A DNA stretch of 64,000 nt from Weeksellaceae bacterium TAE3-ERU29 (GTDB taxonomy: Bacteria; Bacteroidota; Bacteroidia; Flavobacteriales; Weeksellaceae), in NCBI GenBank assembly GCA_019218445.1, contig JAHUUM010000005.1, positions 1 through 64,000 of the forward strand, written 5' to 3'. This document shows, one piece after another, positions 1,880-16,626 of this stretch; position 1 is the stretch's first letter, and the number at the start of each line of letters is the position of its first letter. The notes beneath the pieces were generated by a model. It ran no database searches. It worked only from the letters and a program-made list of their open reading frames with translations, and had not been told where the DNA came from. The translations under genes and the position numbers were made by a program.

Positions 1880-4300
1880 TTACAATTTAAACTTAACTCC
1901 GGCACCTATGTTTATTCCCGGTAGTGGCGATAAATACTTCATTAATGAATTTTGCGGTCTTGCTTCTTGGTTTAAAAGGTTTTTACCAAAAACATAATAC
2001 TCAGTTTTAATGTTTGAGATTTCTGAATTATACGAAACTCGAGCATCTAACATCGTAAATTCAGGCATCGGAATTTCTAAGAATAACATTTTTCCTAAAT
2101 ATTTTTGCTCCAAATAATGCTGTGCTCCTATATTTATTTCAAATTTATTTACTTTTCCATCTAAACCAAAACCAAATCTACTGGTCGGCATATTCGGCAT
2201 ATAATCTCCGTCTGTAAATTTACGCTGACTGTTGTCTGATATGTTTTCATTTTTCACTAAATCATAAAAACCACTTATACTCCACTCTCCATAATTTCCG
2301 AAATCATAAGTATATTTTGCATTAAGCTCCATTCCATAAATATCGGTGTCAGACGCTCTCCATTCTTTCACGACTAACCCGTTACGCCCAATCCCCGTAT
2401 GCCCTAAATAGATATAATTTCTATAAAAATTCTTGTATAAGTTCACATCTATTTTTAAACCATAAAGAGAAATACCTCCGCCTATTTCTACCGAATTCAC
2501 AAATTCTTTGTTTAATTTATCATCTCCATTTTCTTCTATCCCGATTGAATAATGGTTATTCCCCGCATATAGTTCGTTCACTTCCGGTGCTCTTTCCGAG
2601 TGAGCATAAGATGCTAATAAATAAGCCTTTTCCGCTACATTTAATAATAACCTACTGCTGAATTGATGTAAATCGTAATTGCGTTCTTGCAATTTTCCTC
2701 CGGCTCTACCTCGTCCTCTTTTATAATTTTTATCTTCAATAACTTTTCGATTTGCGATACCGTATCGGTATCCTAATTGTAAATTAGCAAAAGCATAATT
2801 TAAGTTTTGTACGGTAAAAATACCAAAATCAGAACTTTGGTTATCAGGCAAATATCTTATATTGTATTCGCCGTCTATTGTTCGGTTATTGTACTCTGCT
2901 CCAATTGTTCCGCTTAAATTTTCTAAAGTTTTTTGTTGCAATTCTATTCTTGAGCCATAATTTTTAATATCATATCTACTCTCGGCATAATCACCAATAT
3001 ATTCTTTATTAATTGAAATTTGAGCTAATCCATTAACTTTGATATTTTGGAAGATTAAAATATTTTTATTAATGTCTGCTTTCAAAGAAAAATTATCATT
3101 AAAATTCTTTATACTAACCGGCTCATACGGATAGATTTTTGGCTTTTTATGTGAATGCCCACCATGGCTATGCGTATGTTCATCTTGTTTTGCTTTGGCA
3201 AAAATCGGAACTCCGTAAGATGAATAATTTCGTTGATACGCTCCTCCTATACTAAAATCATCTCCAATGTAACTCAACCCTGCATTGAAATTCACTAAAT
3301 CTGAATGACTATTTGGAATTTCTTTATCTTTTAAAGTAACATAATCGTGAATATTTTTTATCTTTTCTATATATCTATCCTTTATTTGGTCTTGCCCCGG
3401 AATATAATCAGGATTTGGTAAATTTTTCTCATAAGTAAATGTTGGCGGATTAAAGTAAGTTTCATCAAAGGTATACTGGTCTCCTTCGGATAAACCATTG
3501 GACGGATCTTTCATATCCTCTAAAGTTCTAGGGTTTATATAAGGAAAAAGACTGATATTAAATACACTTTCTTTCTCCAACCATACTTGCCCAAGTGCTT
3601 GTAATGCCTCGCGATTATTCACCGTTTTCGGGTCGTACATAAAACCAACTTTTGAACGTCCCGGAATTCTAATTCTTTTAATAAATGCTGAAGAAAATCC
3701 TGCATTCCAGCTTAAATGTTTGCCTATATTCCCGTATAAATTTGCAGCTTGTTTTGTTCCTGAATTACTGCTTCCTTCTAAGTTTACAGTAGCTCCAAAA
3801 GTTTTATCCGCCATTTTATGGGGAATAACATTTGTCACTAAATTTACTGCTCCCCCTATGGCTTTACCACCGTATAAAACAGATGATGAGTTTTTGTTTA
3901 CATCTATTTCCTGAATATCGGTAAGCCCAAATGAAACATTATATTCCGGACTAATTCCTGATAAGTCTGCAATGGAAACTCCGTTATTTAATACTTTTAC
4001 TCTGTTTCCACTTAAACTCCTAATCATCGGTGAACCTGAACCCGGTCCGAAATAAGTATCTTGCACTCCCGATATTTCACTCAATAAATCGCCTAAACTC
4101 AAACTATGTTTTTTCTCTATTTCTTTCTGATTTAGAGAGGATTTCATATCTATTTTTGTCTTTAATGGCTTATTACCTTTTATTTTTATATGAGGTAGAA
4201 TAATTGTATCGTTTTCTATTTTTGGTTCTATAGATTTCGCATTTAATCCGTTAGTTATTGTAATTGATGCGATTATTAATAATATATATTTGAATTTCAT
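1880..4300 (-). CDS. TonB-dependent outer-membrane receptor with His-rich loop (ZnuD-like)
   Basis: The reading frame extends to 4390, but the ATG at 4300 is the better start: it gives a classic signal peptide (MKFKYILLIIASITITNGLNA). A plug domain follows at about residues 30-140 (LGDLLSEISGV, YGGKAIGGAVNLVT), then a 22-strand-type barrel ending in a C-terminal aromatic/Leu segment. There is no carboxypeptidase-regulatory N-domain, so it is not a SusC-type receptor. A predicted extracellular loop near residues 372-385 reads DEHTHSHGGHSH, like the metal-trapping loop of the zinc receptor ZnuD. I infer uptake of zinc or another transition metal; siderophore or heme uptake remains possible. The gene upstream encodes a small HCxxCH protein, which supports a metal theme. 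Confidence 0.85.
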   Translation of the reverse strand: MKFKYILLIIASITITNGLNAKSIEPKIENDTIILPHIKIKGNKPLKTKIDMKSSLNQKEIEKKHSLSLGDLLSEISGVQDTYFGPGSGSPMIRSLSGNRVKVLNNGVSIADLSGISPEYNVSFGLTDIQEIDVNKNSSSVLYGGKAIGGAVNLVTNVIPHKMADKTFGATVNLEGSSNSGTKQAANLYGNIGKHLSWNAGFSSAFIKRIRIPGRSKVGFMYDPKTVNNREALQALGQVWLEKESVFNISLFPYINPRTLEDMKDPSNGLSEGDQYTFDETYFNPPTFTYEKNLPNPDYIPGQDQIKDRYIEKIKNIHDYVTLKDKEIPNSHSDLVNFNAGLSYIGDDFSIGGAYQRNYSSYGVPIFAKAKQDEHTHSHGGHSHKKPKIYPYEPVSIKNFNDNFSLKADINKNILIFQNIKVNGLAQISINKEYIGDYAESRYDIKNYGSRIELQQKTLENLSGTIGAEYNNRTIDGEYNIRYLPDNQSSDFGIFTVQNLNYAFANLQLGYRYGIANRKVIEDKNYKRGRGRAGGKLQERNYDLHQFSSRLLLNVAEKAYLLASYAHSERAPEVNELYAGNNHYSIGIEENGDDKLNKEFVNSVEIGGGISLYGLKIDVNLYKNFYRNYIYLGHTGIGRNGLVVKEWRASDTDIYGMELNAKYTYDFGNYGEWSISGFYDLVKNENISDNSQRKFTDGDYMPNMPTSRFGFGLDGKVNKFEINIGAQHYLEQKYLGKMLFLEIPMPEFTMLDARVSYNSEISNIKTEYYVFGKNLLNQEARPQNSLMKYLSPLPGINIGAGVKFKL

Positions 4301-4380
4301 TGTTAAATATTTAATAATTGATACAACACTATCATACGCACAATAACAATACTTTATTAACTTTTGATTAATATAGTAGT

Positions 4381-4397
4381 TCATGTGCAATACATGA
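4381..4397. promoter_or_regulatory. candidate operator: perfect 6-bp dyad
   Basis: TCATGT-5 nt-ACATGA lies about 80 bp upstream of the receptor start codon. The position suits a repressor site, possibly for Zur or Fur, but the sequence matches no consensus I am sure of. Confidence 0.25.
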
Positions 4398-4451
4398 GCG
4401 CAGTATTTTTGATTGATAAAAAATGTATAATTGAACGAATAGTATTGCTCT

Positions 4452-4507
4452 TAACTTATTTCTAATTTTTAGAAATAAGTTATACAACCTTAATTAAAAA
4501 AATTAAG
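4452..4507. other. two adjacent hairpins between the small metal-protein gene and the receptor
   Basis: The first stem is 13 bp (TAACTTATTTCTA with its complement, 5-nt loop, 4452-4482). The second is 7 bp (CTTAATT/AATTAAG, 4489-4507). They could attenuate or terminate transcription running from the small gene at 4858 into the receptor gene. Confidence 0.45.
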
Positions 4508-4546
4508 AGTTATTGAATTTACTATTATCCGCTTAAAATCTAATAT

Positions 4547-4858
4547 TTAACTATTTACGGGTGGGCCACGAAGTCTGTCTATAGCTATTACTGAAGTAGT
4601 CGAAAGCTCAAGAAAAAAAGGAGTACTATTTTTTTCGTAAAACTCTAAAAACGGTTTAGGTACAGAAATAGGCTCATTATCCAAAGGCGTAAGCACAGAG
4701 AAATGGCATATTGTACAATGGTCATTTAAAGTAACTCCTAATTTATCTGAATGGAAATTGTCCTCATTATACATGTGAAAAGTCTTCACACCTAATGAGA
4801 ATACTATTATTAGTAAAAATAGTATTGGTTTTATATTTATCCTACTCCTTTTATCCAT
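4547..4858 (-). CDS. small secreted or membrane-anchored HCxxCH protein
   Basis: 103 residues with an N-terminal hydrophobic helix at about residues 10-25. The HCTICH motif at 47-52 plus His28 and His36 would suit binding of one metal ion. Flavobacterial genomes often carry small proteins of this kind directly upstream of TonB receptors; their function is not established and I do not recognise a named family beyond a loose DUF2946 resemblance. Here the gene precedes the His-loop receptor, separated by about 250 bp containing two hairpins, so co-regulation is likely and co-transcription possible. A metal-handling role is inference from motif and context only. Confidence 0.7.
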   Translation of the reverse strand: MDKRSRINIKPILFLLIIVFSLGVKTFHMYNEDNFHSDKLGVTLNDHCTICHFSVLTPLDNEPISVPKPFLEFYEKNSTPFFLELSTTSVIAIDRLRGPPVNS

Positions 4859-4873
4859 TCTATTTAAAGGATT

Positions 4874-4882
4874 GCAAAAATA
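4874..4882 (-). promoter_or_regulatory. -7 promoter element of the HCxxCH gene
   Basis: Read on the minus strand this is TATTTTTGC, matching the Bacteroidota -7 consensus TAnnTTTG. It lies 15 bp before the start codon. Confidence 0.5.
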
Positions 4883-5000
4883 TAAAAATTGTCTATAATT
4901 AAAAATTTATTCTTTAGTCATAACTAATATTCTTAATATTTTATTTTAATAAATATTTTTTATAATCACTTAGTTTCTTTTTAGAATAATTGATTTATTG

Positions 5001-5008
5001 TAATTTTG
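5001..5008 (+). promoter_or_regulatory. -7 promoter element of lysS
   Basis: TAATTTTG fits the TAnnTTTG consensus 33 bp before the lysS ATG. No convincing -33 TTTG is visible. Confidence 0.5.
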
Positions 5009-5041
5009 TGCTTTTGTAGAAATAAATAAAATTTAAAAACA

Positions 5042-6730
5042 ATGGCATTATCTGAACAAGAACAAATACGCCGAGATAAATTACAACAAATTAGAGATTT
5101 AGGAATTAATCCTTATCCGGCGGAAGGCTTTGATGTAACTGAAACGACTCAGTCTGTAAAAGAAAACTTTGAAGAAGGAAAAAAAGTGAAACTTGCAGGG
5201 AGATTAATGGCAAGACGTATTCAGGGAAAAGCCTCATTTGCTGAATTGCAAGATGCCGAAGGAAGAGTTCAGATTTATTTTAATCGAGATGAGATTTGCA
5301 CCGGAGAAGATAAATCAAAATATAACGAGCTTTATAAAAAACTTTTAGATATAGGAGATTTCGTAGGAATTGAGGGAGAATTATTCAAAACTCAAGTGGG
5401 GGAAAAAACTGTTATGGTAAAAGATTTCACTTTATTGAGTAAATCTTTAAAACCACTTCCGTTACCAAAAGTAGATGCAGAAGGGAATGTTCATGACGGA
5501 TTTAATGATCCTGAAATGCGTTACAGACAGCGTTATGCAGATTTAGTGGTAAACCCTCACGTAAAAGAGATTTTTAATAAACGTTCTCGTTTATTTACTG
5601 CTATGAGGAATTTCTTTAACGAAAGAGGTTATTTTGAGGTGGAAACGCCAATTCTTCAGCCAATTCCGGGGGGAGCAGCGGCACGCCCGTTTGTGACTCA
5701 GCACAATGCATTAAACATTCCTTTATATATGCGTATTGCAAACGAATTATATCTGAAAAGATTAATCGTTGGTGGTTTTGATGGAGTGTATGAGTTTTCT
5801 AAAAATTTCCGTAACGAGGGAATGGATAGAACGCATAATCCTGAGTTTACAGCTATGGAAATTTATGTTTCTTATAAAGATTACAACTGGATGATGGACT
5901 TTACCGAAAAACTGATAGAGCATTGTGCCATAGCAGTTAACGGAACAACGAAAGCTACATTCGGAGAATATGAAATCGACTTTAAAGCTCCATATAAGCG
6001 AGTAACGATGAGAGATGCTATTCTTGAATTTACAGGTTTTGATATTTTAGATAAGTCTGAAGATGAGTTAAGAGAGGCTGCAAAATCTATGGGAATTGAG
6101 GTGGATGATACAATGGGTAAAGGGAAATTAATTGATGAAATTTTTGGAGAAAAATGTGAAGGAAATTACATTCAACCAACTTTCATTACAGATTATCCTA
6201 AAGAAATGTCTCCGCTTACTAAAATGCACCGTGACAATCCTGAACTTACAGAACGTTTTGAGTTAATGGTGTGTGGAAAAGAAATTGCAAATGCTTATTC
6301 TGAGCTAAACGACCCAATCGACCAAAGAGAGCGTTTTGAAGACCAATTAAAACTTTCTGAAAAAGGAGATGATGAGGCAATGTTTATAGATCAAGATTTC
6401 TTGAGAGCCTTGGAATATGGAATGCCACCAACAGCAGGTTTAGGTATTGGAATGGATAGATTGATTATGTTTTTAACTAATCAACAGTCTATTCAGGAAG
6501 TTCTATTTTTCCCACAAATGAAACCTGAGGTTAAGAAAATAGCTTTAACCGCAGAGGAAAAAACTATTTTAGATATTTTGAAAAAAGAAAAAAGAATGGT
6601 TTTAGACGAATTGAAATCTCAAAGCGGTTTATCTAATAAAAAGTGGGATAAGTCTATTAAGTCACTGAATAAAAATAAACTAACTAAAGTAGAAAAAACT
6701 GATGAAGGTTTATTTGTAGAAATTTTGTAA
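5042..6730 (+). CDS. lysS: lysyl-tRNA synthetase, class II
   Basis: 562 residues. It charges tRNA-Lys with lysine in the cytoplasm. The N-terminal OB-fold anticodon-binding domain (about 55-150) is followed by the class II core. Motif 2 is FRNEGMDRTHNPEF and motif 3 is GLGIGMDRL near residue 465. After the usual end (VLFFPQMKPE) there is an extra tail of about 60 residues rich in Lys and Glu that resembles a small winged-helix-like domain; this extension occurs in other flavobacterial LysS proteins. The ATG at 5042 has an A-rich leader. The gene stands alone, with the divergent HCxxCH gene upstream. Confidence 0.97.
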   Translation: MALSEQEQIRRDKLQQIRDLGINPYPAEGFDVTETTQSVKENFEEGKKVKLAGRLMARRIQGKASFAELQDAEGRVQIYFNRDEICTGEDKSKYNELYKKLLDIGDFVGIEGELFKTQVGEKTVMVKDFTLLSKSLKPLPLPKVDAEGNVHDGFNDPEMRYRQRYADLVVNPHVKEIFNKRSRLFTAMRNFFNERGYFEVETPILQPIPGGAAARPFVTQHNALNIPLYMRIANELYLKRLIVGGFDGVYEFSKNFRNEGMDRTHNPEFTAMEIYVSYKDYNWMMDFTEKLIEHCAIAVNGTTKATFGEYEIDFKAPYKRVTMRDAILEFTGFDILDKSEDELREAAKSMGIEVDDTMGKGKLIDEIFGEKCEGNYIQPTFITDYPKEMSPLTKMHRDNPELTERFELMVCGKEIANAYSELNDPIDQRERFEDQLKLSEKGDDEAMFIDQDFLRALEYGMPPTAGLGIGMDRLIMFLTNQQSIQEVLFFPQMKPEVKKIALTAEEKTILDILKKEKRMVLDELKSQSGLSNKKWDKSIKSLNKNKLTKVEKTDEGLFVEIL

Positions 6731-6788
6731 GATAACTGCTTTTTCAATTATTAACCATAAATTATTTTAATAATAAAAATTTTGGCGT

Positions 6789-6797
6789 TAATTTTGC
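6789..6797 (+). promoter_or_regulatory. -7 promoter element of the MliC-like lipoprotein gene
   Basis: TAATTTTGC lies 25 bp before the ATG at 6822. Transcription would begin at about 6802-6805, which rules out the in-frame ATG at 6801 and decides the start. Confidence 0.55.
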
Positions 6798-6821
6798 ATC
6801 GTGATTATAAAATATAATAAA

Positions 6822-7232
6822 ATGAAAAAAATTAAAACAGTAGCATTGGCTAGTACAGTATTATTAGCATTTGCTTGTAACAAAAAAGAAGCAACTCCTG
6901 TAGATCCTGCAACAAATCAGGATACTATTAATGTAGTGGAGGAAGATGTAGTAGTGGAAGCTCCGGTAGCAGCTGAGCCTGAAGCTATTTCTACTCAAAC
7001 TTACGAAGGAGACGGACAAAAAGTAGTAGCTACTTATATGGGAGATGACGCAGGAAATATGAGCGTTAAATTAGAAGTTGACGGACAAACTATCGTTTTA
7101 CCGCAAACTGAAGCTTGGGCAAAAGGTGCTATCTACGGAGACGGTACTACTGAGTTTACTAATAAAGGACAGATTGATCAAGCTGTTTTAGTATTAGATG
7201 GTAAAACTTATAATATGAATTTAGTTAAATAG
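6822..7232 (+). CDS. MliC-like lipoprotein (possible lysozyme-inhibitor fold)
   Basis: 136 residues from the ATG at 6822. The signal peptide MKKIKTVALASTVLLAFAC ends in a lipobox. A low-complexity acidic linker (residues about 25-55, VEEDVVVEAPVAAEPE) leads to a domain of about 75 residues. That domain follows the MliC/PliC pattern: YEGDGQKVVATY, LEVDGQTIVLPQ, GAIYGDGTTEFTNKG, AVLVLDGKTY. MliC family members are periplasmic inhibitors of C-type lysozyme. The usual disulfide cysteines and the conserved SG of SGxRY are not present, so inhibition is not assured. It is monocistronic, with its own promoter and a strong terminator. Confidence 0.75.
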   Translation: MKKIKTVALASTVLLAFACNKKEATPVDPATNQDTINVVEEDVVVEAPVAAEPEAISTQTYEGDGQKVVATYMGDDAGNMSVKLEVDGQTIVLPQTEAWAKGAIYGDGTTEFTNKGQIDQAVLVLDGKTYNMNLVK

Positions 7233-7252
7233 TCATTTGACTTTATTAGTAA

Positions 7253-7280
7253 AAAATCCGCTTGAATCTAAGCGGATTTT
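7253..7280 (+). terminator. intrinsic terminator after the MliC-like gene
   Basis: A perfect 11-bp stem AAAATCCGCTT/AAGCGGATTTT with a 6-nt loop is followed by a T-tract, 20 bp past the stop codon. Confidence 0.85.
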
Positions 7281-7568
7281 TTTATTCTTTAGTTTTTAAT
7301 AGGAACTTTATTGCTTTCTAAAACTCCATCAAAAATTTAGATACTCTAATCAGTAGGAGGTATAATAAAATAGTCTTTTCTTCGGTCATTATTTGATATT
7401 AATAGAATATAAACTTCCTTTAAGTTACTCTGTATATTCTTATTGAAATCAAGTTCACCTGCAAGTAGCGCTATATTGATTAATCTCATTAAAGCTCACT
7501 AAAAGCCCTACTAAAATTAGTAAATAGCAAAAGGTTAAAATATTAAAAGTGATTTTTGTTTTCATCAT
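7279..7568 (-). pseudogene. decayed copy of the small secreted-protein gene found at 10511-10894
   Basis: The first about 42 bp (7279-7320), just outside the coding part, match 10442-10484 with a single visible difference (AAT/AAC AGGAACTTTATTGC). The match then continues through the 3' end of the gene: on the minus strand this copy still ends KDYFIIPPTD-stop against KDYFIMPPTG-stop in the intact gene, and it retains the segment around TCTTCGGTCAT and GATATTAATA. Internal deletions of tens of bases break the frame. A start and a signal-peptide-like beginning (ATG at 7565, MKTKITFNILT) remain, but the frame stops after about 36 codons. Together with the intact copy it brackets the helicase gene. 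Confidence 0.8.
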
Positions 7569-7632
7569 TGCATATTAGCAAGATTTCTATTTTATTAAAA
7601 TTTATTTGTACACCTTGTTTCAATTGAGAATT

Positions 7633-10344
7633 TTACTTCCATCTAGTTACGCGTTCAGCCTTTTTCTCAAATTGGGCAGATAATGATTTTACTCTTGATT
7701 TCAAAAGTAATTTTCGTCCTTCGATTGTTCGTGTAAAAATTAAATCACAAGAACCGACAAGTCTTTCCCATTGGTTTTTAAAATATTCTGCCAATTTTTT
7801 ATTTCGTCCGAGTATTTCAGGAACAGAATGATAGTCTTTTTGTTTTATAAATAACAAAAATTTACTTTTCCTGACAATTACATATCGAGGATTGTCAATA
7901 GGTGAAATCACTTCTTTTAAGGCATTTATAAAAGTGGATTTATCGAAAGCTGTACCACCTTTCAAATGACAGAAAACAGTCCCAAAATCATCAACAGAAG
8001 TTTTTACAATTAATTTAGAATAGTCGGTTTTTATGCTCCCCACCTTAACTAATGAGCTTAAAAGCGCCTCTCCGATTTGTTGAATATCTTTTGATATATC
8101 TCGGTATTTTAAATACAATCTAAAGGTTTTTATTGTAAGCCCACCAAAATAAAACATTCCCATGACTACAAAAATCATAAGAAAAATATACAAATCTCGA
8201 ATAGTTCTTATCTTATGTATTATTCTTCCAAGACCGCTTAAAACTTCTAATCCAAAACCAACCAAACCTAAGCCTAAAGTGGTAAAAAGATAACGAATAG
8301 TGTTATTGAAGTACAGAGACTTAACCGCTTTGTATTCTTTTTCCTCAGAAAATGGAATTTTAATTTCTTGGATAAGTGTTTCGCCCGTTTCAAGAGCTAT
8401 TTTCCACCTATTTTTTAGATTCTCTCTATTTTCGGCATAAGAAAACATCTCTGTATTCTTTTTCTCTGCTTCTTTTTTATGATGAATCTTTTCGGGTAAA
8501 TTTAGACGTCCTATTCCATTTTCAATTCCGGGGTTTTCTTTGAATGAGACACCCACAAAACTTTTAAATCGTCTTTTTAATAAATCAAAATCATCTCCAC
8601 CCGTTTTGGAAGTACTGTCGATACAGACTAAGTGCCAGATATTTGCTGTTTTTTCGTTATTCCCTTTTTGTGTTCTAATGGCTCTGCCTCGCATTTGATT
8701 AGAAAGTACAAAAGAACCTACATAACTCGCCAAGATTAAAGCGTTGATTGCCGGGGCGTCCCAACCTTCACCCAATAAAGATTTAGTTCCAACCAAAACT
8801 TGAATTTCTCCTGATTCAAAAATTTGAGTTACGATACGGACAATATCATGTTTGAGTTGCTCGGTTTGTTTAATTAAAATATAATTATCATCAAAAGGAA
8901 CAGGACTCGAATTGATTTGCGTAATTCCGTATTTTAATGCCTTTGTTTTAAACGCAGAATAAGCACTAATCGGCATAATAATAATTGAGCCCGTAAGCAC
9001 TGCAATTTTCTTATTGTCAGCGTTTTCTCGCCTTAATTTTTCAAAAATTGGAATAACACCTATTTTATTTAATTCAAGATTATTTTCAGGTGCATTAGTG
9101 TAAAATTCTTCGCGTATAAAGTCTGAGAGAATAACCAAGCGTAAATCATTGTTTAAATTTCTATATTCAAAATCAACAATTTCTTTGATGCTGTTTAGTT
9201 TACTAATACTTGAAGTCAAAAATCCTGTTACTCGGTTGTTGTGCGAAAAATTAATCTGTCGCCTTTCAATCGCACCATATCGTCTTAATCGATTTTCGAG
9301 TATTTTTCTGTGTTCTTCAAATGCCTTAAAATGTTCATTTTCTTTATAAAGATAGAAATCTAAAAGTGTTTCAATCCATTCATAATCAAGTTTTGGGATT
9401 TTAAATTTTTTATCACCTATAACTTCAAGATGAGTTTCAGAGATTTCTTTTTTATTTGAATTTAAAAATATTAAACAAGCCGAATAATAAGACAAATTGT
9501 TATAAATCCAATCTAAATGCTCTGTGGGATTTTGCCAAATTGGGAGCTGTTCTATTGCCTGAATAATAATTTCATCATTTTTGATTTCTTGAAAAAGTTT
9601 TTCAATATTTTGCCTAAACTCAACAATTTTTTTGTTTTCTTTTTCAGTAGGAAAAGTGAAATGAACGTAATCCTGATGCGGGCATAAATCCCCTTCAATC
9701 ACTAATTCCGGCACAGAAATTTCTGTATCTACAAGTCCGTTTAAATCAATATAACGTTGCCATTCCGTGGCGGTTACATCATAAGGAGGAGTAGCTGTTA
9801 AACCAACAATAACGGGGTCTAATTTCTCTTTAATCTGTATAAGTGTTTGCCACCAGTCATTTTTTAAATGGTGTGCCTCATCTACGACAATCGTCTGAAT
9901 ATTTTGAGATTTTAAAAGTCGTACAATATGATTAAGCTCTGACTTAGATTTTTTTGTATTTTCCTCCTCTTTATTATTGTTTTCTTCCTCGTTAGTGTTC
10001 CAATTATTACAAGCCGAATGAAGTCCCTGATAAGTTACTACGGTTAGGAATTTTGGATTGCGAATATCTCTCGAAATCCAATCCGGAGTTAAATCGGTTT
10101 GAAGAAAAAGTTCACAAAATCTTTGTATCCATTGATTACGGATAGCGATTGTCGGGGCAAGTATTAAAGTCGGTTTATTCAGCCTAACAGCGACTTCAAG
10201 CCCCAATACGGTTTTGCCCGAACCCGGTGGAGCAATTACATGTAAATGTCGGTCAGATAAATGATTTTGTAACTCATCAAGCACTCGTTGTTGGTATTTT
10301 CGCCAACTATATTTGAATTTTATGTCTTTTGGATATTCTTTCAA
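7633..10344 (-). CDS. membrane-anchored DEAH-type superfamily 2 helicase
   Basis: 903 residues. The SF2 motifs are in order: Walker A APPGSGKT (38-45), DEAH at 155-158, motif III-like GLTATPP (181-187), motif V GEGWDAP (525-531) and motif VI QMRGRAIRTQKG (550-561). This is the ResIII/DEAD layout of nucleic-acid translocases. After the helicase core come two hydrophobic segments (about 683-705 and 718-737) and a C-terminal domain of about 160 residues that I do not recognise, ending in a basic helix. A helicase core joined to transmembrane helices is unusual for housekeeping enzymes. It sits alone between two copies of another gene, with no methylase or nuclease neighbour. A defence role against phage or plasmids is a reasonable inference, not shown. 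Confidence 0.88.
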   Translation of the reverse strand: MKEYPKDIKFKYSWRKYQQRVLDELQNHLSDRHLHVIAPPGSGKTVLGLEVAVRLNKPTLILAPTIAIRNQWIQRFCELFLQTDLTPDWISRDIRNPKFLTVVTYQGLHSACNNWNTNEEENNNKEEENTKKSKSELNHIVRLLKSQNIQTIVVDEAHHLKNDWWQTLIQIKEKLDPVIVGLTATPPYDVTATEWQRYIDLNGLVDTEISVPELVIEGDLCPHQDYVHFTFPTEKENKKIVEFRQNIEKLFQEIKNDEIIIQAIEQLPIWQNPTEHLDWIYNNLSYYSACLIFLNSNKKEISETHLEVIGDKKFKIPKLDYEWIETLLDFYLYKENEHFKAFEEHRKILENRLRRYGAIERRQINFSHNNRVTGFLTSSISKLNSIKEIVDFEYRNLNNDLRLVILSDFIREEFYTNAPENNLELNKIGVIPIFEKLRRENADNKKIAVLTGSIIIMPISAYSAFKTKALKYGITQINSSPVPFDDNYILIKQTEQLKHDIVRIVTQIFESGEIQVLVGTKSLLGEGWDAPAINALILASYVGSFVLSNQMRGRAIRTQKGNNEKTANIWHLVCIDSTSKTGGDDFDLLKRRFKSFVGVSFKENPGIENGIGRLNLPEKIHHKKEAEKKNTEMFSYAENRENLKNRWKIALETGETLIQEIKIPFSEEKEYKAVKSLYFNNTIRYLFTTLGLGLVGFGLEVLSGLGRIIHKIRTIRDLYIFLMIFVVMGMFYFGGLTIKTFRLYLKYRDISKDIQQIGEALLSSLVKVGSIKTDYSKLIVKTSVDDFGTVFCHLKGGTAFDKSTFINALKEVISPIDNPRYVIVRKSKFLLFIKQKDYHSVPEILGRNKKLAEYFKNQWERLVGSCDLIFTRTIEGRKLLLKSRVKSLSAQFEKKAERVTRWK

Positions 10345-10510
10345 CTTATTTGTGCTTGTTTTAATTTGTGGTTAAAAGTACGGATTTTTTGATAACTACG
10401 TAAATTCAGCCCGTAATTCAATATACACCTCATGTAAGCAATTTTTTATTCTTTAGTTTTTAACAGGAACTTTATTGCTTTCTAACGTTCTATCAAATTT
10501 TTAAATAATT

Positions 10511-10894
10511 CTAACCAGTAGGAGGCATAATGAAATAATCTTTTAAATATTTCTGAAAATACTCTTCTCTTCGGTCATCATTTATATAATTTTTATCATC
10601 TGATATTAATAAAATATAGACCTCTTTTAAATTATTCTGTGAATTTTTATTGAAATAAGATTGCAAGGTTTCATACTCAAATAAACGTACCAATGGTATG
10701 CCTATATTGTATAATGCAATATATAATTGATATGTTTTTTCTTGCTTTTTTTGATAGGTTGCCGAAAGATACTTAAATGTTTCCAGAGATAAATGGTCTT
10801 CCTTTAGTTTTACTTGCACAGCATCTACTTGCTGACCTTTTACAAAGCTAATTATTAAATAGAATAAAATCACAAAGTATTTACATTTATTCAT
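10511..10894 (-). CDS. small secreted protein of unknown function
   Basis: 127 residues. The start gives a signal peptide (MNKCKYFVILFYLIISFVKG) cleaved before QQVDAV. The mature part is about 105 residues, charged and probably helical, with no cysteine and no motif I recognise, and ends PPTG. A degraded second copy lies at 7279-7568, so this gene was duplicated together with its 3' flank. The intact copy is downstream of the yqiA-like gene with a 117-bp gap and could be read from its own promoter. Confidence 0.7.
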   Translation of the reverse strand: MNKCKYFVILFYLIISFVKGQQVDAVQVKLKEDHLSLETFKYLSATYQKKQEKTYQLYIALYNIGIPLVRLFEYETLQSYFNKNSQNNLKEVYILLISDDKNYINDDRREEYFQKYLKDYFIMPPTG

Positions 10895-11011
10895 GGGGTT
10901 TTATTTTACAAAAAATGACTCACTTAACAAACTCAAATATAGGAAATTATATCCTACACTCAAAAAAATCATAAAAACAGAATTTCTCTATTGAAAAAAA
11001 CGCATTACTTA

Positions 11012-11503
11012 CTAAGACAAAACCTTATCAAAAAAATACTTTAACTCCTCTTTAAAAATATTAATCGGGAGGGAATGTTGCATTTGTTTTCGCCAATGAA
11101 TTTCTATAAAATCCTCTGAGTTTTTTTCATTATTGAGTATCTCAAAACTTTTATACGGATTTACAATTTCATCTTTTGCACCAATCACAGCGAGTAAAAA
11201 ATTCTCCCGAACAGGCAAATCAGGTAAGTTCATATAATCTTCTACAAACGGCAATGCAGGATTAAAAACCAAAGCCGGAACACGCAATAATCCTGAAAGA
11301 TAATACCCTACTAAACCTCCTGCACTTGAACCGATTATAAAACCAATATCTTTATATTCAGTCAATAATTTATCTAAAACTTTTGGGTCGTTTTCATAAT
11401 CTAACTGAGGTGCAGAAATATTAAATCCGTATTCCTCCAAAACCTCTCTTCTATCGTCATGAAGTGTAGAATTTAATCCATGTAAATACAATACATTTTT
11501 CAT
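11012..11503 (-). CDS. YqiA-like alpha/beta-hydrolase esterase
   Basis: 163 residues, the length expected for the YqiA/UPF0227 family of small cytoplasmic esterases. The oxyanion region LYLHGLNS opens the protein. The nucleophile elbow GSSAG places the catalytic Ser at residue 60, IGAKDEIV supplies the Asp, and MQHSLP near the C-terminus supplies the His. The start codon overlaps the wecC stop by one base (TAATG), so it is translationally coupled as the last gene of the five-gene operon. The substrate is unknown; removal of an ester from an envelope sugar or a metabolite would suit the context but is inference. Confidence 0.85.
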   Translation of the reverse strand: MKNVLYLHGLNSTLHDDRREVLEEYGFNISAPQLDYENDPKVLDKLLTEYKDIGFIIGSSAGGLVGYYLSGLLRVPALVFNPALPFVEDYMNLPDLPVRENFLLAVIGAKDEIVNPYKSFEILNNEKNSEDFIEIHWRKQMQHSLPINIFKEELKYFFDKVLS

Positions 11504-12717
11504 TATTGATTGTCTTTTTTTATTCCGCAGAAATCAAGAATTACTTTATTTTCATCTATTTCTAAATTTTTAAACTCATTATGAGCAACCAAAAATGCAA
11601 TAATATCGGCTTGTTTTACAGCGGTTTTATAATCGGTTAGTTTAAAAACTTTATGCGTTGTAATATTGGGTTCTACGATAAAATAATCCTCGTCTTGAGC
11701 ATCTTGTAAAACTTTCTGAACAATATATTTTGCGGGTGATTCTCTTAAATCATCAATATTTGGTTTAAAAGCCAATCCCATTAATGCCACAGACGGATTT
11801 TTTCCGAATTTAATATTAAAATCTCTCTGAGCTTTTTTGATTTGCTCGGCACACCAAAACGATTTATAATTATTAATTTCTCTCGCCTTACCGATTAATT
11901 GCGATTCCATAGGAAAATCCGACAAAATAAAATACGGGTCAACGGCAATGCAATGCCCACCTACTCCACAACCGGGTTGCAAAATATTGACTCTCGGGTG
12001 TTTATTCGCCAATCGAATAAGCTCCCAAACGTCTATTTCCGCTTTTTCACAAATAAGTGAAAGTTCATTGGCAAAAGCAATCTGAACGTCCCGAGATGAG
12101 TTCTCGGTAAGTTTACACATTTCTGCTGTTTTTGCATTGGTTTTATGCAATTCTCCTTTTACAAATTGCTCATAAAACTGAATGGCTTTTTGCGTAGATT
12201 CCTCGTTTATTCCACCAATCACGCGGTCGTTATTCACAAGTTCATAAATAATATTTCCCGGCAAAACACGCTCGGGACAATAGGCAAAATAAATTTTATT
12301 CTTTAATTCAGGACGCTGAGAAATTACTAAATTCAGCATTCTTTCGGTTGTTCCAACGGGCGAAGTAGATTCAATTATAACTAAATCTTCTTCTTTTAAA
12401 ATAGGAATAATTGATGAAATGGCTTCTTCTACAAAAGAAGTATCCGGCTCGTGATTCCCCTTAAAAGGCGTAGGCACAACGATTAAATAAACATTGGCTC
12501 TTTCAGGTTTTAGAGAGGCTTTTAATAAATCAGCTTTTACCGATTTCTCTACAACTTCCTTTAAATCAGGTTCAAAAATATGAATTTCTCCACGATTAAT
12601 GGTTTCCACCACTTCCTCGTTTATATCCACACCCAAAACTTTTATCCCGTTGTCCGCGAGTAAAGCCGAAGTGGGCAAACCGATATACCCTAAACCTAAA
12701 ACAACTACATCTTCCAT
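11503..12717 (-). CDS. wecC: UDP-N-acetyl-D-mannosamine dehydrogenase
   Basis: 404 residues. It oxidises UDP-ManNAc to UDP-ManNAcA in two NAD-dependent steps. The N-terminal Rossmann motif is VLGLGYIGLP (residues 6-15). The catalytic Cys is C256 in GCGVGGHCIAVDP. The C-terminal UDP-binding domain carries GLAFKPNIDDLRESPA. Length and motifs match WecC rather than UDP-glucose dehydrogenase, and the adjacent epimerase gene supports this. It overlaps wecB upstream and the esterase downstream by one base each (TAATG), so the three are tightly coupled. The product feeds surface polysaccharide or glycan synthesis; no polysaccharide assembly genes follow in this window. Confidence 0.93.
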   Translation of the reverse strand: MEDVVVLGLGYIGLPTSALLADNGIKVLGVDINEEVVETINRGEIHIFEPDLKEVVEKSVKADLLKASLKPERANVYLIVVPTPFKGNHEPDTSFVEEAISSIIPILKEEDLVIIESTSPVGTTERMLNLVISQRPELKNKIYFAYCPERVLPGNIIYELVNNDRVIGGINEESTQKAIQFYEQFVKGELHKTNAKTAEMCKLTENSSRDVQIAFANELSLICEKAEIDVWELIRLANKHPRVNILQPGCGVGGHCIAVDPYFILSDFPMESQLIGKAREINNYKSFWCAEQIKKAQRDFNIKFGKNPSVALMGLAFKPNIDDLRESPAKYIVQKVLQDAQDEDYFIVEPNITTHKVFKLTDYKTAVKQADIIAFLVAHNEFKNLEIDENKVILDFCGIKKDNQ

Positions 12718-13841
12718 TAATTTTTCAAATTTTTCATAAAACTAATAATTCTTTCACAAGCCTTTCCGTCCCCATACGGATTGTGCAATTCCTTCATTTG
12801 ATTATAAAAATCACTGTCTTCTAACAATTTAGAAGTATTTTCTATAATTTTCTCCTCATCTGTCCCCACCAAAAGCACTGTCCCCTCTTCCACCGCTTCG
12901 GGACGTTCGGTATTGTTTCGTGTTACTAAAACAGGTTTTCCCAAACTCGGGGCTTCTTCCTGAATTCCTCCACTGTCGGTAATAATTATTTTTGAATGAT
13001 TCATCAGCCAAATAAAATCTTGATACGCCAATGGTTTTATCAATAAAATATTATCCGTTTTGCCTAAAATCTTATGTACGGGATTTTGCACTTTTGGGTT
13101 TAAATGAACGGGATAAATAAAGACTTTATCCTTATATTTTTGAGCTAATTTTAAAATCGCACTGCAAATATGCTCTATTCCCTCACCAAAGTTTTCTCGG
13201 CGATGTCCTGTTATTAAAATCACCTCTCTGCCATTTATTTTTTGCTCTAAACTTAAAATAAATTCAGACGGATTTTCTTTGGCTTTTTCCACAGATTGCA
13301 AAAGAGCATCTATCACAGTATTTCCCGTAACAATGATATTTTCAGATAAAATTCCTTCCGAGATTAAATTTTCTTTGGCTTTTTGAGTCGGAGCAAAATG
13401 ATAATTCGTCATTCTGGACGTCACTTGTCGGTTCATTTCCTCAGGATAAGGCGATTTTAAATTATTTGTCCTTAGTCCCGCCTCTATATGGCAAATTTTT
13501 GACTGATGATAAAAACTCGCCATTGCCGATGCCATGCTGGTGGTTGTGTCCCCGTGAACGAAAACGTAATCAGGCTGAAAGTCCTCTAAAACGCTTTTTA
13601 AATGCAGTAAAATATCTGAAGTAAGTGTGTACAAATTCTGATTAGGACGCATTAAATTCAAATCAAAATCAGGCTTGATTTGGAAAAAATCTAAAACTTG
13701 GTCGAGCATTTCTCTATGCTGAGCCGTTACACAAACTTTGGTTTCAAAATTGGTGTTGTCACTTAAAAATGCTTTTACCAAAGGCGACATTTTTATCGCC
13801 TCGGGACGCGTTCCAAAAACAATGAGTATTCTTTTCTTCAT
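12717..13841 (-). CDS. wecB: UDP-N-acetylglucosamine 2-epimerase (non-hydrolysing)
   Basis: 374 residues. It interconverts UDP-GlcNAc and UDP-ManNAc, supplying WecC. Visible family signatures are FGTRPEAIKMSPL at the N-terminus, HVEAGLRT-like HIEAGLRTNNLKSPYPEE, GHRRENFGEGI, and DSGGIQEEAPSLGKPVLVTR followed by NTERPEA. It begins 10 bp after the metallophosphatase gene and ends overlapping wecC, so it is the third gene of the operon. Cytoplasmic. Confidence 0.95.
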   Translation of the reverse strand: MKKRILIVFGTRPEAIKMSPLVKAFLSDNTNFETKVCVTAQHREMLDQVLDFFQIKPDFDLNLMRPNQNLYTLTSDILLHLKSVLEDFQPDYVFVHGDTTTSMASAMASFYHQSKICHIEAGLRTNNLKSPYPEEMNRQVTSRMTNYHFAPTQKAKENLISEGILSENIIVTGNTVIDALLQSVEKAKENPSEFILSLEQKINGREVILITGHRRENFGEGIEHICSAILKLAQKYKDKVFIYPVHLNPKVQNPVHKILGKTDNILLIKPLAYQDFIWLMNHSKIIITDSGGIQEEAPSLGKPVLVTRNNTERPEAVEEGTVLLVGTDEEKIIENTSKLLEDSDFYNQMKELHNPYGDGKACERIISFMKNLKN

Positions 13842-13851
13842 TCAAAAGAAA

Positions 13852-14775
13852 TTAAACAAAATTAGAACTGATTTCTAAACGGGAGGTTGCTACTTTTTTG
13901 GATTGATTAAAACTATCAAAATAGAAGTCAAATCTTCCTAAATACAATCCAGCCCAACCTACTTGATTAATAATCACAGATTTTCCTTCCGCATTGGCTA
14001 CTTCTACGGGATTCTTTAAAAAAGTGTGTGTATGCCCTCCAATTATTAAATCTATATCTTTTGTTTTTGCAGCCAAAACATGGTCAGACACTTTATCGCT
14101 GTCATATTTAAAACCTAAATGAGAAAGACAAATGATTAAATCACATTTCTTTTCTTTTAGTTCTTTGGTCATTTGCTGAGCAATTTCTATCGGGTCTAAG
14201 TATTTAGTTTCTCCGTAATTAGCTTTTTCTACTAAGCCATGCAGCTCCACTCCTACTCCAAAAATGCCGACTTTTATTCCGTCTTTTACAAAAATCTGAT
14301 ACGGGATTGTTCGTCCGTCCAGAATCGTATTTTTAAAATCGTAGTTAGAACAAATAAAATTAAAATTAGCATGTTTTAATTGCTTTTCAAAGCCTTTTAA
14401 ACCATTATCAAAATCATGATTTCCCATAGTTGCGGCATCATATCCCATTTTTGACATGAGCTTAAACTCCAACTCTCCTCCAAAAAAGTTAAAATAAGGT
14501 GTTCCCTGAAAAATATCTCCGGCATCTAATAACAATACATTTTTTTCTTCTCTACGAATTTTGTTTATTAAAGTAGCTCTACGTGCAAAACCTCCTTTAT
14601 TAGAATATTTTGGGTTTTCCGAAAGCTCAAACGGCTCTATTCTACTATGCTGGTCGTTGGTATGTAAAATCGTGATTTTTTTACTTTTCGATTTTGCCCA
14701 AGCAGGAAGTGTAGGCACTAAAGTTAAAGCAGAAGCCGCAACTGTATTTTGAATAAATTTTCTTCTTGAAATCAT
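13852..14775 (-). CDS. Tat-exported metallophosphatase, N-terminal half of a split 5'-nucleotidase/UDP-sugar hydrolase
   Basis: 307 residues. The N-terminus is a twin-arginine signal (SRRKFIQ followed by a hydrophobic stretch ending PAWA). The calcineurin-like metal motifs are all present: TNDQH, DAGDIFQG, GNHDFDNG, LSHLG and GGHTHTF. In UshA-type enzymes this domain is followed by a substrate-binding domain in the same chain; here that domain is encoded by the preceding gene only 3 bp away. The pair would hydrolyse nucleotides or UDP-sugars in the periplasm. Such splits are common in the Bacteroidota, so I treat it as genuine rather than a frameshift. Confidence 0.9.
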   Translation of the reverse strand: MISRRKFIQNTVAASALTLVPTLPAWAKSKSKKITILHTNDQHSRIEPFELSENPKYSNKGGFARRATLINKIRREEKNVLLLDAGDIFQGTPYFNFFGGELEFKLMSKMGYDAATMGNHDFDNGLKGFEKQLKHANFNFICSNYDFKNTILDGRTIPYQIFVKDGIKVGIFGVGVELHGLVEKANYGETKYLDPIEIAQQMTKELKEKKCDLIICLSHLGFKYDSDKVSDHVLAAKTKDIDLIIGGHTHTFLKNPVEVANAEGKSVIINQVGWAGLYLGRFDFYFDSFNQSKKVATSRLEISSNFV

Positions 14776-14778
14776 AAG

Positions 14779-15513
14779 TTATGGTAAATAGCGAGGGGTT
14801 AAGTCCACTTTTAATGTGTCGTTTTTCTTAAATTCATCTATAAAAATATCTCTCAACTTTAACTTTAAGTCGATTTTTTCTTCGGGATTAGTAAAGAAAT
14901 CCATTCCATCTCCTCCTTTCTGTAAATAATCGTTTGTGATTACCCAGTAGGATTTATTAATATCAAATGGTTTGTCTTTTAAATATAAATTCAAATCTTT
15001 TCCGTCCAAAGAAAAACTAAATCCTGATATAGGATGTCCAACTCTATGTTCTTTTAAATAATCAATCATCTTCATGAAATCTTTTCCGCTTAATTTTACA
15101 ACAACTGCAGAGTTCTCAAAGGGCATCAGCTCAAAAATACTTCTCACGGTAATATTCCCGGGAGTAAAAGTTCGCCGAATCCCACCATGATTTAATAAAG
15201 CGACATCTATCTGTTTATTATATTTTTTATTAAATATTTCGTTACCTGCCTCTAACAATTGGTCTGCCAATAAATTAGCCAAATTGGCATTTAAACCTTT
15301 TTCTAATTTATAAGGATTATAGGTTAAAAACTGTTCCATTTGAGCATCTAATTGTTCTTTATATGGCTCTATTGCTTTTACCATTTCCGGATTAGGCTCA
15401 AATTCATCGGTTATACTTATTTCTTTTTTATCAACAGTTTTGCTTACATAAAGCTTATGCTGACAACCGAATAGTGTAACTAAAAGTACAATTATAGAAA
15501 TGCCTTTTTTCAT
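14779..15513 (-). CDS. lipoprotein with 5'-nucleotidase C-terminal substrate-binding domain
   Basis: 244 residues. The signal peptide ends LVTLFGC, a lipobox, so the protein is membrane-anchored in the periplasm. It carries the 5_nucleotid_C signatures LNHGGIR, GNITVRSIFELMPFEN and NDYLQKGGDGMDFF, which bind the nucleoside part of the substrate. It lacks the catalytic metallophosphatase domain, which is supplied by the next gene after a 3-bp gap. It is the first gene of the operon that continues with wecB, wecC and the esterase. The partners use different export routes (Sec lipoprotein here, Tat there), so they must assemble outside the cytoplasm. Confidence 0.9.
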   Translation of the reverse strand: MKKGISIIVLLVTLFGCQHKLYVSKTVDKKEISITDEFEPNPEMVKAIEPYKEQLDAQMEQFLTYNPYKLEKGLNANLANLLADQLLEAGNEIFNKKYNKQIDVALLNHGGIRRTFTPGNITVRSIFELMPFENSAVVVKLSGKDFMKMIDYLKEHRVGHPISGFSFSLDGKDLNLYLKDKPFDINKSYWVITNDYLQKGGDGMDFFTNPEEKIDLKLKLRDIFIDEFKKNDTLKVDLTPRYLP

Positions 15514-15558
15514 TTTTTATATTTTTTAATCAAGACTAAAAAAGAATTCTAAATTCCT

Positions 15559-16626
15559 TTATTGGTTCTGATATTTTTTAATAAGTGTCATCCAGTCTAA
15601 AGTTTTTAAACTACTAATAAGAACAGGATTGACTTGTGATACTAATTTTGAATCTTTTGGAAAACAATAGCCAAAATAGTCTTTTCTTAAAATATAAGGT
15701 ATTGTTTGTATTTCCTTTTTGAGCCCTAATTGCTCTATTTCATAAAGCATTAACGGCTCATCGTACACAAAAATTTGAGAAGCTTCATTTTTTAGATTTA
15801 AAATCCCTTGTTTTACGGATGAAACAGGCAAATAGTCTATACGATAAGATTGTAAATAGTCTGCCGAGCTGGAATCCTCAACAGTTTCTACTTTAAACTT
15901 ACTTAAATCGTTTACAGATTTTATTTCTTCATTTAAGTTTTGAACTGTTAAAGAAGAGGCAATCCCCGCTGTTAAACTGGAAATAGTTACTACGGCTATA
16001 AACATCCAAATAATACCAATGAACCTCCCCATTGTAGTTTGTGGAGCTTTATCTCCATAACCTACAGTTGTCATAGTTACGGCACTCCACCAAAATGCTT
16101 GCCCTATGCCTTTCCATTTCCCTACACCAAATTGCTCTTTATTTTTCTTGCGTTCAAAAATCCAAATTAGAAATCCGAAAATAAATATAACACCTATTAA
16201 TATTCCTACTGCTGAAATAAATCTCCAGCTCCATAAATTTAAAAAGGTATTCCAAACTGATGACTGGTCTTTTCTTGCCATTACAGTATTCGAAATAAAA
16301 TAGGGTTGTGTAAAATCATATTTTACGGCCCTTTCTTCTGTTACTGTAATCGGGTTTATACTAAAATCTACCTCTCTTTTCTCTATAGCATCCATTAATT
16401 CAGGTAGAGAGTTATATAATTTATACTCGTATTTCCACTCAAGTACACTGTTTACCAATTGCCAAGAGTCTACACTTAATCCTCTAAATCCTGTATGTGA
16501 CTTTTCTACAAACGGTGGTGCTATTTTTAATCCTATTATTACTTTTTTTGTACTTACTTCTTGTTGAGCATTAATAATTTTTAGAGAACAGATGAATATG
16601 CACAGAAATAATAAAACTTTATTCAT
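15559..16626 (-). CDS. ionotropic glutamate receptor-type potassium channel (GluR0-like)
   Basis: I take the ATG at 16626, which gives a clean signal peptide (MNKVLLFLCIFICSLKIINA); 16644 is also in frame. The order is ligand-binding lobe 1, a membrane helix, a pore loop with the K+ filter TVGYGD, a second helix (GIIWMFIAVVTISSLTAGIA) and ligand-binding lobe 2. In numbering from 16644, the pore motif is at 193-198 and the helices at about 143-163 and 206-229. This is the layout of the cyanobacterial channel GluR0: a periplasmic SBP_bac_3 domain split by a minimal K+ pore. It should open on binding an amino acid or similar ligand. It lies between CcsBA and the nucleotidase operon with no evident partner. 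Confidence 0.9.
   Translation of the reverse strand: MNKVLLFLCIFICSLKIINAQQEVSTKKVIIGLKIAPPFVEKSHTGFRGLSVDSWQLVNSVLEWKYEYKLYNSLPELMDAIEKREVDFSINPITVTEERAVKYDFTQPYFISNTVMARKDQSSVWNTFLNLWSWRFISAVGILIGVIFIFGFLIWIFERKKNKEQFGVGKWKGIGQAFWWSAVTMTTVGYGDKAPQTTMGRFIGIIWMFIAVVTISSLTAGIASSLTVQNLNEEIKSVNDLSKFKVETVEDSSSADYLQSYRIDYLPVSSVKQGILNLKNEASQIFVYDEPLMLYEIEQLGLKKEIQTIPYILRKDYFGYCFPKDSKLVSQVNPVLISSLKTLDWMTLIKKYQNQ

Follow-up and report, generated by a model that had tools for sequence, protein, structure and literature searches.

The stretch of DNA analysed here, 64,000 nucleotides long (the window), carries an SF2 helicase gene that, judged by sequence comparison, is horizontally acquired and mobile and is probably a stranded, decayed gene cassette. 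We propose that this accessory gene was disseminated among Bacteroidota in the form of an integron-type cassette, as was found for its relatives and as the window copy would have been. The cassettes would carry attC-like hairpin sites of ~125 bp, on which a Xer-like tyrosine recombinase that has no IntI-specific segment would act. The window copy would have come to rest away from any array, flanked by two tandem copies of a small gene that were already there, and would then have lost its attC site to decay. The protein may be a membrane-tethered, ATP-driven DNA translocase or helicase that works at the inner membrane on DNA entering the cell (from phages, plasmids or transformation), its C-terminal domain serving as effector or recognition part; for this role of the protein we argue from its architecture, the patchy distribution and the company of other cassettes. 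We assign this explanation as a whole a probability of roughly 55%. Table 1 lists the features of the locus.

Table 1. Features of the helicase locus in the window (positions are those of the whole window).
Feature	Position	Strand	Basis or remark
SF2 (ResIII/DEAH) helicase gene, with a membrane segment and a C-terminal domain of no recognised family	7633..10344	-	903 codons, TTG start
Walker A motif APPGSGKT, residues 38-45	10210..10233	-	invariant in 21 homologues
Motif II DEAHH, residues 155-159	9868..9882	-	motif check and homologue comparison
Motif VI QMRGRAIR, residues 550-557	8674..8697	-	motif check and homologue comparison
Clear transmembrane segment, residues 720-738	8131..8187	-	hydropathy; weaker hydrophobic stretch just before
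Conserved C-terminal domain, residues 746-903	7636..8109	-	no match in Pfam, NCBIfam, PDB sequences
Probable attC 5' arm remnant (AACAAGGTGTA)	7609..7619	-	11 nt, about 13-14 nt beyond helicase stop
Degenerate cassette leader (TTTAACCACAAATTAAAAC...)	10346..10376	-	same length as L012's GTTGGGCGTAAATTTAAAC...; weak
Intact small secreted-protein gene X, orphan	10511..10894	-	ORF and comparison with X'
X', decayed paralogue of small gene X	7279..7568	-	alignment to X, in-frame stops
X 3' flank	10442..10485	.	43/44 identical to 7278-7321
X' 3' flank	7278..7321	.	43/44 identical to 10442-10485

The helicase open reading frame is uninterrupted, and its TTG start is common to its family. All motifs expected of the SF2 DEAH/ResIII group were found (APPGSGKT, DEAHH, TATPP, GEGWDAP and QMRGRAIR), with Walker A, DEAH, motif III and motif VI intact, which bears out the complete core described in the initial annotation. 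The two membrane helices claimed there held in part: one is clear (residues 720-738, KD hydropathy 2.27), and the preceding one is weak. The C-terminal domain had been called unrecognised and stays so, since profile searches of PDB, Pfam and NCBIfam gave nothing credible for this region. Structure predictions were too poor for a fold search, with pLDDT values of 42 for the full helicase and 49 for the C-terminal domain alone. This domain is 78-83% identical to its counterparts in two homologues (L017 and L011; L numbers denote loci and G numbers genomes), whereas the transmembrane segment is only 55-62% identical. Conservation of the C-terminal domain thus comes close to that of the core, unlike that of the membrane part, which makes a specific task for this domain probable. 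The dN/dS values of 0.07-0.09 against relatives indicate that the gene is kept functional under strong purifying selection.

Near full-length homologues are patchy in their occurrence. Seven of 99 relatives have one, as do 48 of 397 family f3 genomes and 54 of the 296 genomes from the window's own family; all three congeners lack the gene. Close homologues, with 72-82% identity, are scattered over Bacteroidota orders in discordance with LysS. Two Cyclobacteriaceae copies are 81% and 77% identical to the window helicase, where LysS is 64% identical; the copies of own-family genomes G013, G038, G048 and G1346 reach only 46-52%, where LysS is 73-77% identical. Helicase identities so out of step with LysS point to horizontal transfer. 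In the tree, the window copy falls within a clade of ten rows, eight of which are cassette-borne copies (SH-aLRT 95). Together with the congener absence, the patchiness and the LysS discordance, this placement upholds the earlier view of a mobile gene. An empty-site comparison within the genus was impossible, as lysS and the hydrolase gene are not adjacent in the congeners. A 40% homologue stands alone on a Paenibacillus plasmid. Viral contigs yielded no relative with the architecture of the helicase; one candidate (L068) turned out to be an ordinary intein-bearing phage helicase.

The helicase might instead be a genome-maintenance enzyme, engaged at the membrane in repair or the processing of DNA and not in defence, a reading that we consider unlikely but the best placed of the alternatives. 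It draws on two stable clades that reside at conserved sites, one beside hemB and one beside a uracil-DNA glycosylase (UDG) gene. At 21 loci of family f3 the helicase is divergent from hemB, and at 26 loci, in genus g21 and at L032, a UDG-superfamily glycosylase gene precedes it on the same strand at a distance of ~45 bp (UDG match, E 1.1e-15). These two resident lineages count against an anti-phage role and would suit a housekeeping one, as would the strong purifying selection. The tree places the window copy outside both of them, and in the mobile clade the helicase is solitary, without a conserved neighbour, which, like the patchy occurrence, argues against maintenance. The core does resemble XPB, RadD and Hef, and shares with these SF2 ResIII/DEAH helicases and with the Dnd restriction helicase (TIGR04095) a RecA-like core with motifs I, II, III, V and VI. 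However, the match is confined to the core and far under the cut-offs (XPB 43, RadD 22 and Hef 37 bits against 610-720), as it is for every NCBIfam repair model, and the window protein, unlike all four, also has a membrane segment and a C-terminal domain of no recognised family. From the architecture, the patchiness and the cassette company we regard a defence role as more likely than repair, and an anti-phage role as plausible. As side observations, the glycosylase of the UDG-side lineage (L100-L124, L032) is SMUG2-like, and some loci of the hemB-side lineage (L048, L077-L097) carry a RAYT-like transposase and a hemF-like sequence downstream.

The case for a cassette comes from the relatives. 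In the mobile clade, conserved sequence continues past the helicase reading frame. Cassette-type copies, which make up most of the close homologues, start with GTT and a core, and the complement of this core (the R' sequence) occurs just after the stop codon. The cores at the two ends covary (GTTGGGCGTAAG/CCTACGCCCAAC, GTTAGGCGTAAG/CCTACGCCTAAC and GTTGTGGCCAAT/ACTGGCCACAAC), so that complementarity is kept through compensatory changes in L010, L013, L014, L069 and L071. Cassette ends are degraded in L011, L016 and L028, and L017, L029, L070 and L072 have none. Between L010 and L013, a match of 2909 bp at 88% identity ends at CGTT on either side. A covariance model of attC, built from the array sites of genome G500 described below, matched sequences flanking the homologues with E-values from 9e-28 to 1e-3; such sites flank the helicases of L013, L028, L069 and L071, and weakly that of L016. 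Six of seven attC-like sites fold as single-stranded DNA with z-scores from -2.1 to -4.5; Rfam returned no attC-type match. The mobile clade thus shows attC-like hairpin sites flanking the gene and occurring in arrays of one orientation. Three further elements were seen at these loci. A MntA/HepT-type toxin-antitoxin pair lies directly downstream of one helicase cassette (L016:2982-3615), and IS91-type transposase fragments with a broken tyrosine recombinase, named by eye from their translations, lie upstream of another (L013:1-5133). A group II intron match (Rfam RF02001; L015:118-317) stands ~1.2 kb before a third helicase; some group II introns insert at attC sites.

Arrays were searched for with a pattern of 15 nt from the attC-like 5' arm, 13 of its bases fixed. 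In G500 it occurred 28 times, always on one strand and 27 times within two clusters, and the reversed control gave no occurrence. The clusters hold 28 and 18 full attC-like sites of ~125 bp each, chromosomal and in the same orientation (within C1:2215001-2270000 and 2730001-2800000; L155-L161), and longer gaps between sites probably hide unrecognised ones. A helicase homologue (L069) borders the second cluster, next to the array of 28 sites, and it is this array that has a recombinase at its head. The R' core pairs with the cassette's own start at a mean of 4.3-4.5 of 6 positions, against 2.3-2.5 for random pairs, and at 6/6 for most adjacent sites. None of 32 scored cassette bodies had a longer reading frame on the reverse strand. 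Some cassettes have no reading frame, being units of 434 bp that recur several times. Some gene cassettes are present in both arrays. Elsewhere, G725 has 19 attC-model sites in 20 kb, and in G021 (C87:145001-158408; L163) a recombinase is followed by eight attC-like sites with small genes on the same strand.

As in an integron platform, an integrase-like gene stands at the array head, in G500 (L158:3622-4794, 390 aa) and in G021 (L163:3324-4505, 393 aa); in G1398 (L132) an attC-like site likewise adjoins a recombinase. From these positions, the Xer-like recombinases are likely to be the enzymes that move the cassettes. The array-head proteins of G500 and G021 match Xer/IntI families below every cut-off. 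Against the IntI model TIGR02249 the score is 197 bits with a cut-off of 265, and model positions 179-237 stay unaligned. In an alignment of IntI4 with the G500 protein, ~45 residues (IntI4 199-246) have no counterpart, so that the additional domain specific to IntI is missing. No IntI above the curated cut-off was detected in 13 genomes.

The arrays thus share with integrons (IntI-attC) cassettes that mostly hold a single gene and all point the same way, sites that are imperfect palindromes and whose R'/R'' cores pair with the cassette's own start, a tyrosine recombinase at the array head and repeated cassettes without reading frames. Unlike integrons, they have a recombinase that falls under the TIGR02249 and NF040815 cut-offs and is shorter by the IntI-specific residues, and their cores are variable instead of a fixed GTTRRRY. 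On balance we favour the view that Bacteroidota carry an unrecognised class of chromosomal integrons, with dozens of cassettes, ~125-bp attC sites of variable core and a Xer-like recombinase without the IntI-specific domain, and that the membrane helicase family is a widely shared, probably defensive cassette of this class. Such integrons would be missed by the usual detection owing to the lack of that domain. Within Bacteroidetes proper, the only complete integron that IntegronFinder 2.0 reported was one from Salinibacter (PMC9024848), the published taxon-specific attC models leave out the phylum (PMC8352920), and a review names Bacteroidetes among integron carriers without detail (PMC8618304). 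We found no description of such cassette arrays in the literature searched, which covered sources other than subscription journals and preprints. If our view is right, the arrays would be an overlooked path by which single genes are transferred in a large phylum reported to be nearly integron-free, would raise the question whether integrons can work without the IntI-specific domain, and would offer a catalogue of cassette genes, several of them resembling defence genes.

In the window itself, only probable traces of a cassette are left. The motif AACANNGTGTA has a single match when both strands of the 64 kb are searched (0.31 expected); it lies on the helicase strand, and its distance from the stop codon is close to that of cassette copies, such as L071, where the same motif follows 20 nt after the helicase stop. 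At the other end, weak homology to the leader of L012 begins just after the variable core. The R' core of the window does not pair with the core of its leader, and an intact attC after the helicase was not found: the best match of the attC model over positions 4001-16000 had an E-value of 0.12 and covered the inner part only. Nowhere in the window genome does the 5' arm pattern occur. By its sequence, the window helicase is thus probably a cassette that has been stranded and has decayed.

The initial annotation had described the helicase as bracketed by an intact and a degraded copy of a small gene with a nearly identical 3' flank, and this layout was confirmed. Duplicated stretches are 7278-7343 versus 10442-10507 (88%), 7345-7379 versus 10510-10544 (89%) and 7388-7449 versus 10595-10656 (82%). 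The two flanks of the helicase match with an E-value of 6e-31, and as only one of 539 control segments of the same size has such a repeat, the duplication is not due to chance. X' is a pseudogene with four in-frame stops and 57% amino-acid identity over residues 61-125. The 5' halves of X and X' give no convincing alignment, which makes the duplication look old; from the sequence, we infer that the two are diverged paralogues older than the helicase insertion. X had no match in 58 other genomes, and a similarity to HamA (17.5 bits, E 5e-4) was treated as a chance match.

The window copy might also have arrived by a duplication-linked event, that is, by homologous or illegitimate recombination between the flanking direct repeats, separately from the cassette relatives. 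We hold this to be rather improbable, a little more so than a maintenance role. Helicase copies do lie between direct repeats (E<1e-12) in the window and in L011, L014, L017, L030 and L046, at odds with the rarity among controls, and at L017 it is a host gene whose 3' end is repeated. Yet the kinds of repeat vary by site, those of L011 being attC-like sequence that ends at the cassette boundary, and we therefore rejected direct repeats as a single common insertion mechanism. The failure of the 5' halves of the two small-gene copies to align and the attC-arm remnant in the right place also speak against a duplication-linked arrival. The tandem duplication suggested earlier as the route of arrival is accordingly not supported: integron-type cassettes are the form in which the relatives move, and the duplication seems to predate the arrival and to have no connection with it. 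At L017, which is from Flavobacterium filum (L017:9820-9960 and 12728-12870), a second copy of the upstream gene's 3' end (94%, 143 bp) directly follows the helicase stop, which does not resemble a cassette insertion.

That the helicase belongs to a multi-gene system whose partner lies elsewhere or was lost is quite improbable, for the glycosylase at the g21 loci is set against the lack of a conserved neighbour in the mobile clade and beside the Paenibacillus plasmid copy. With PADLOC 2.0, neither a whole-protein match nor the expected partners were found, and matches were confined to the helicase core; no known defence system covers this gene, in keeping with the earlier proposal of an undescribed system. 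PbeA (PDLC02707) matches the core (E 2.5e-15), but the best-scoring stretch spans only residues 6-265 of 902, and its partner genes are missing here. Among the other G500 cassettes, three of ten match PADLOC defence families (DrmC-like PLD, PDC-S59 and DzbB).
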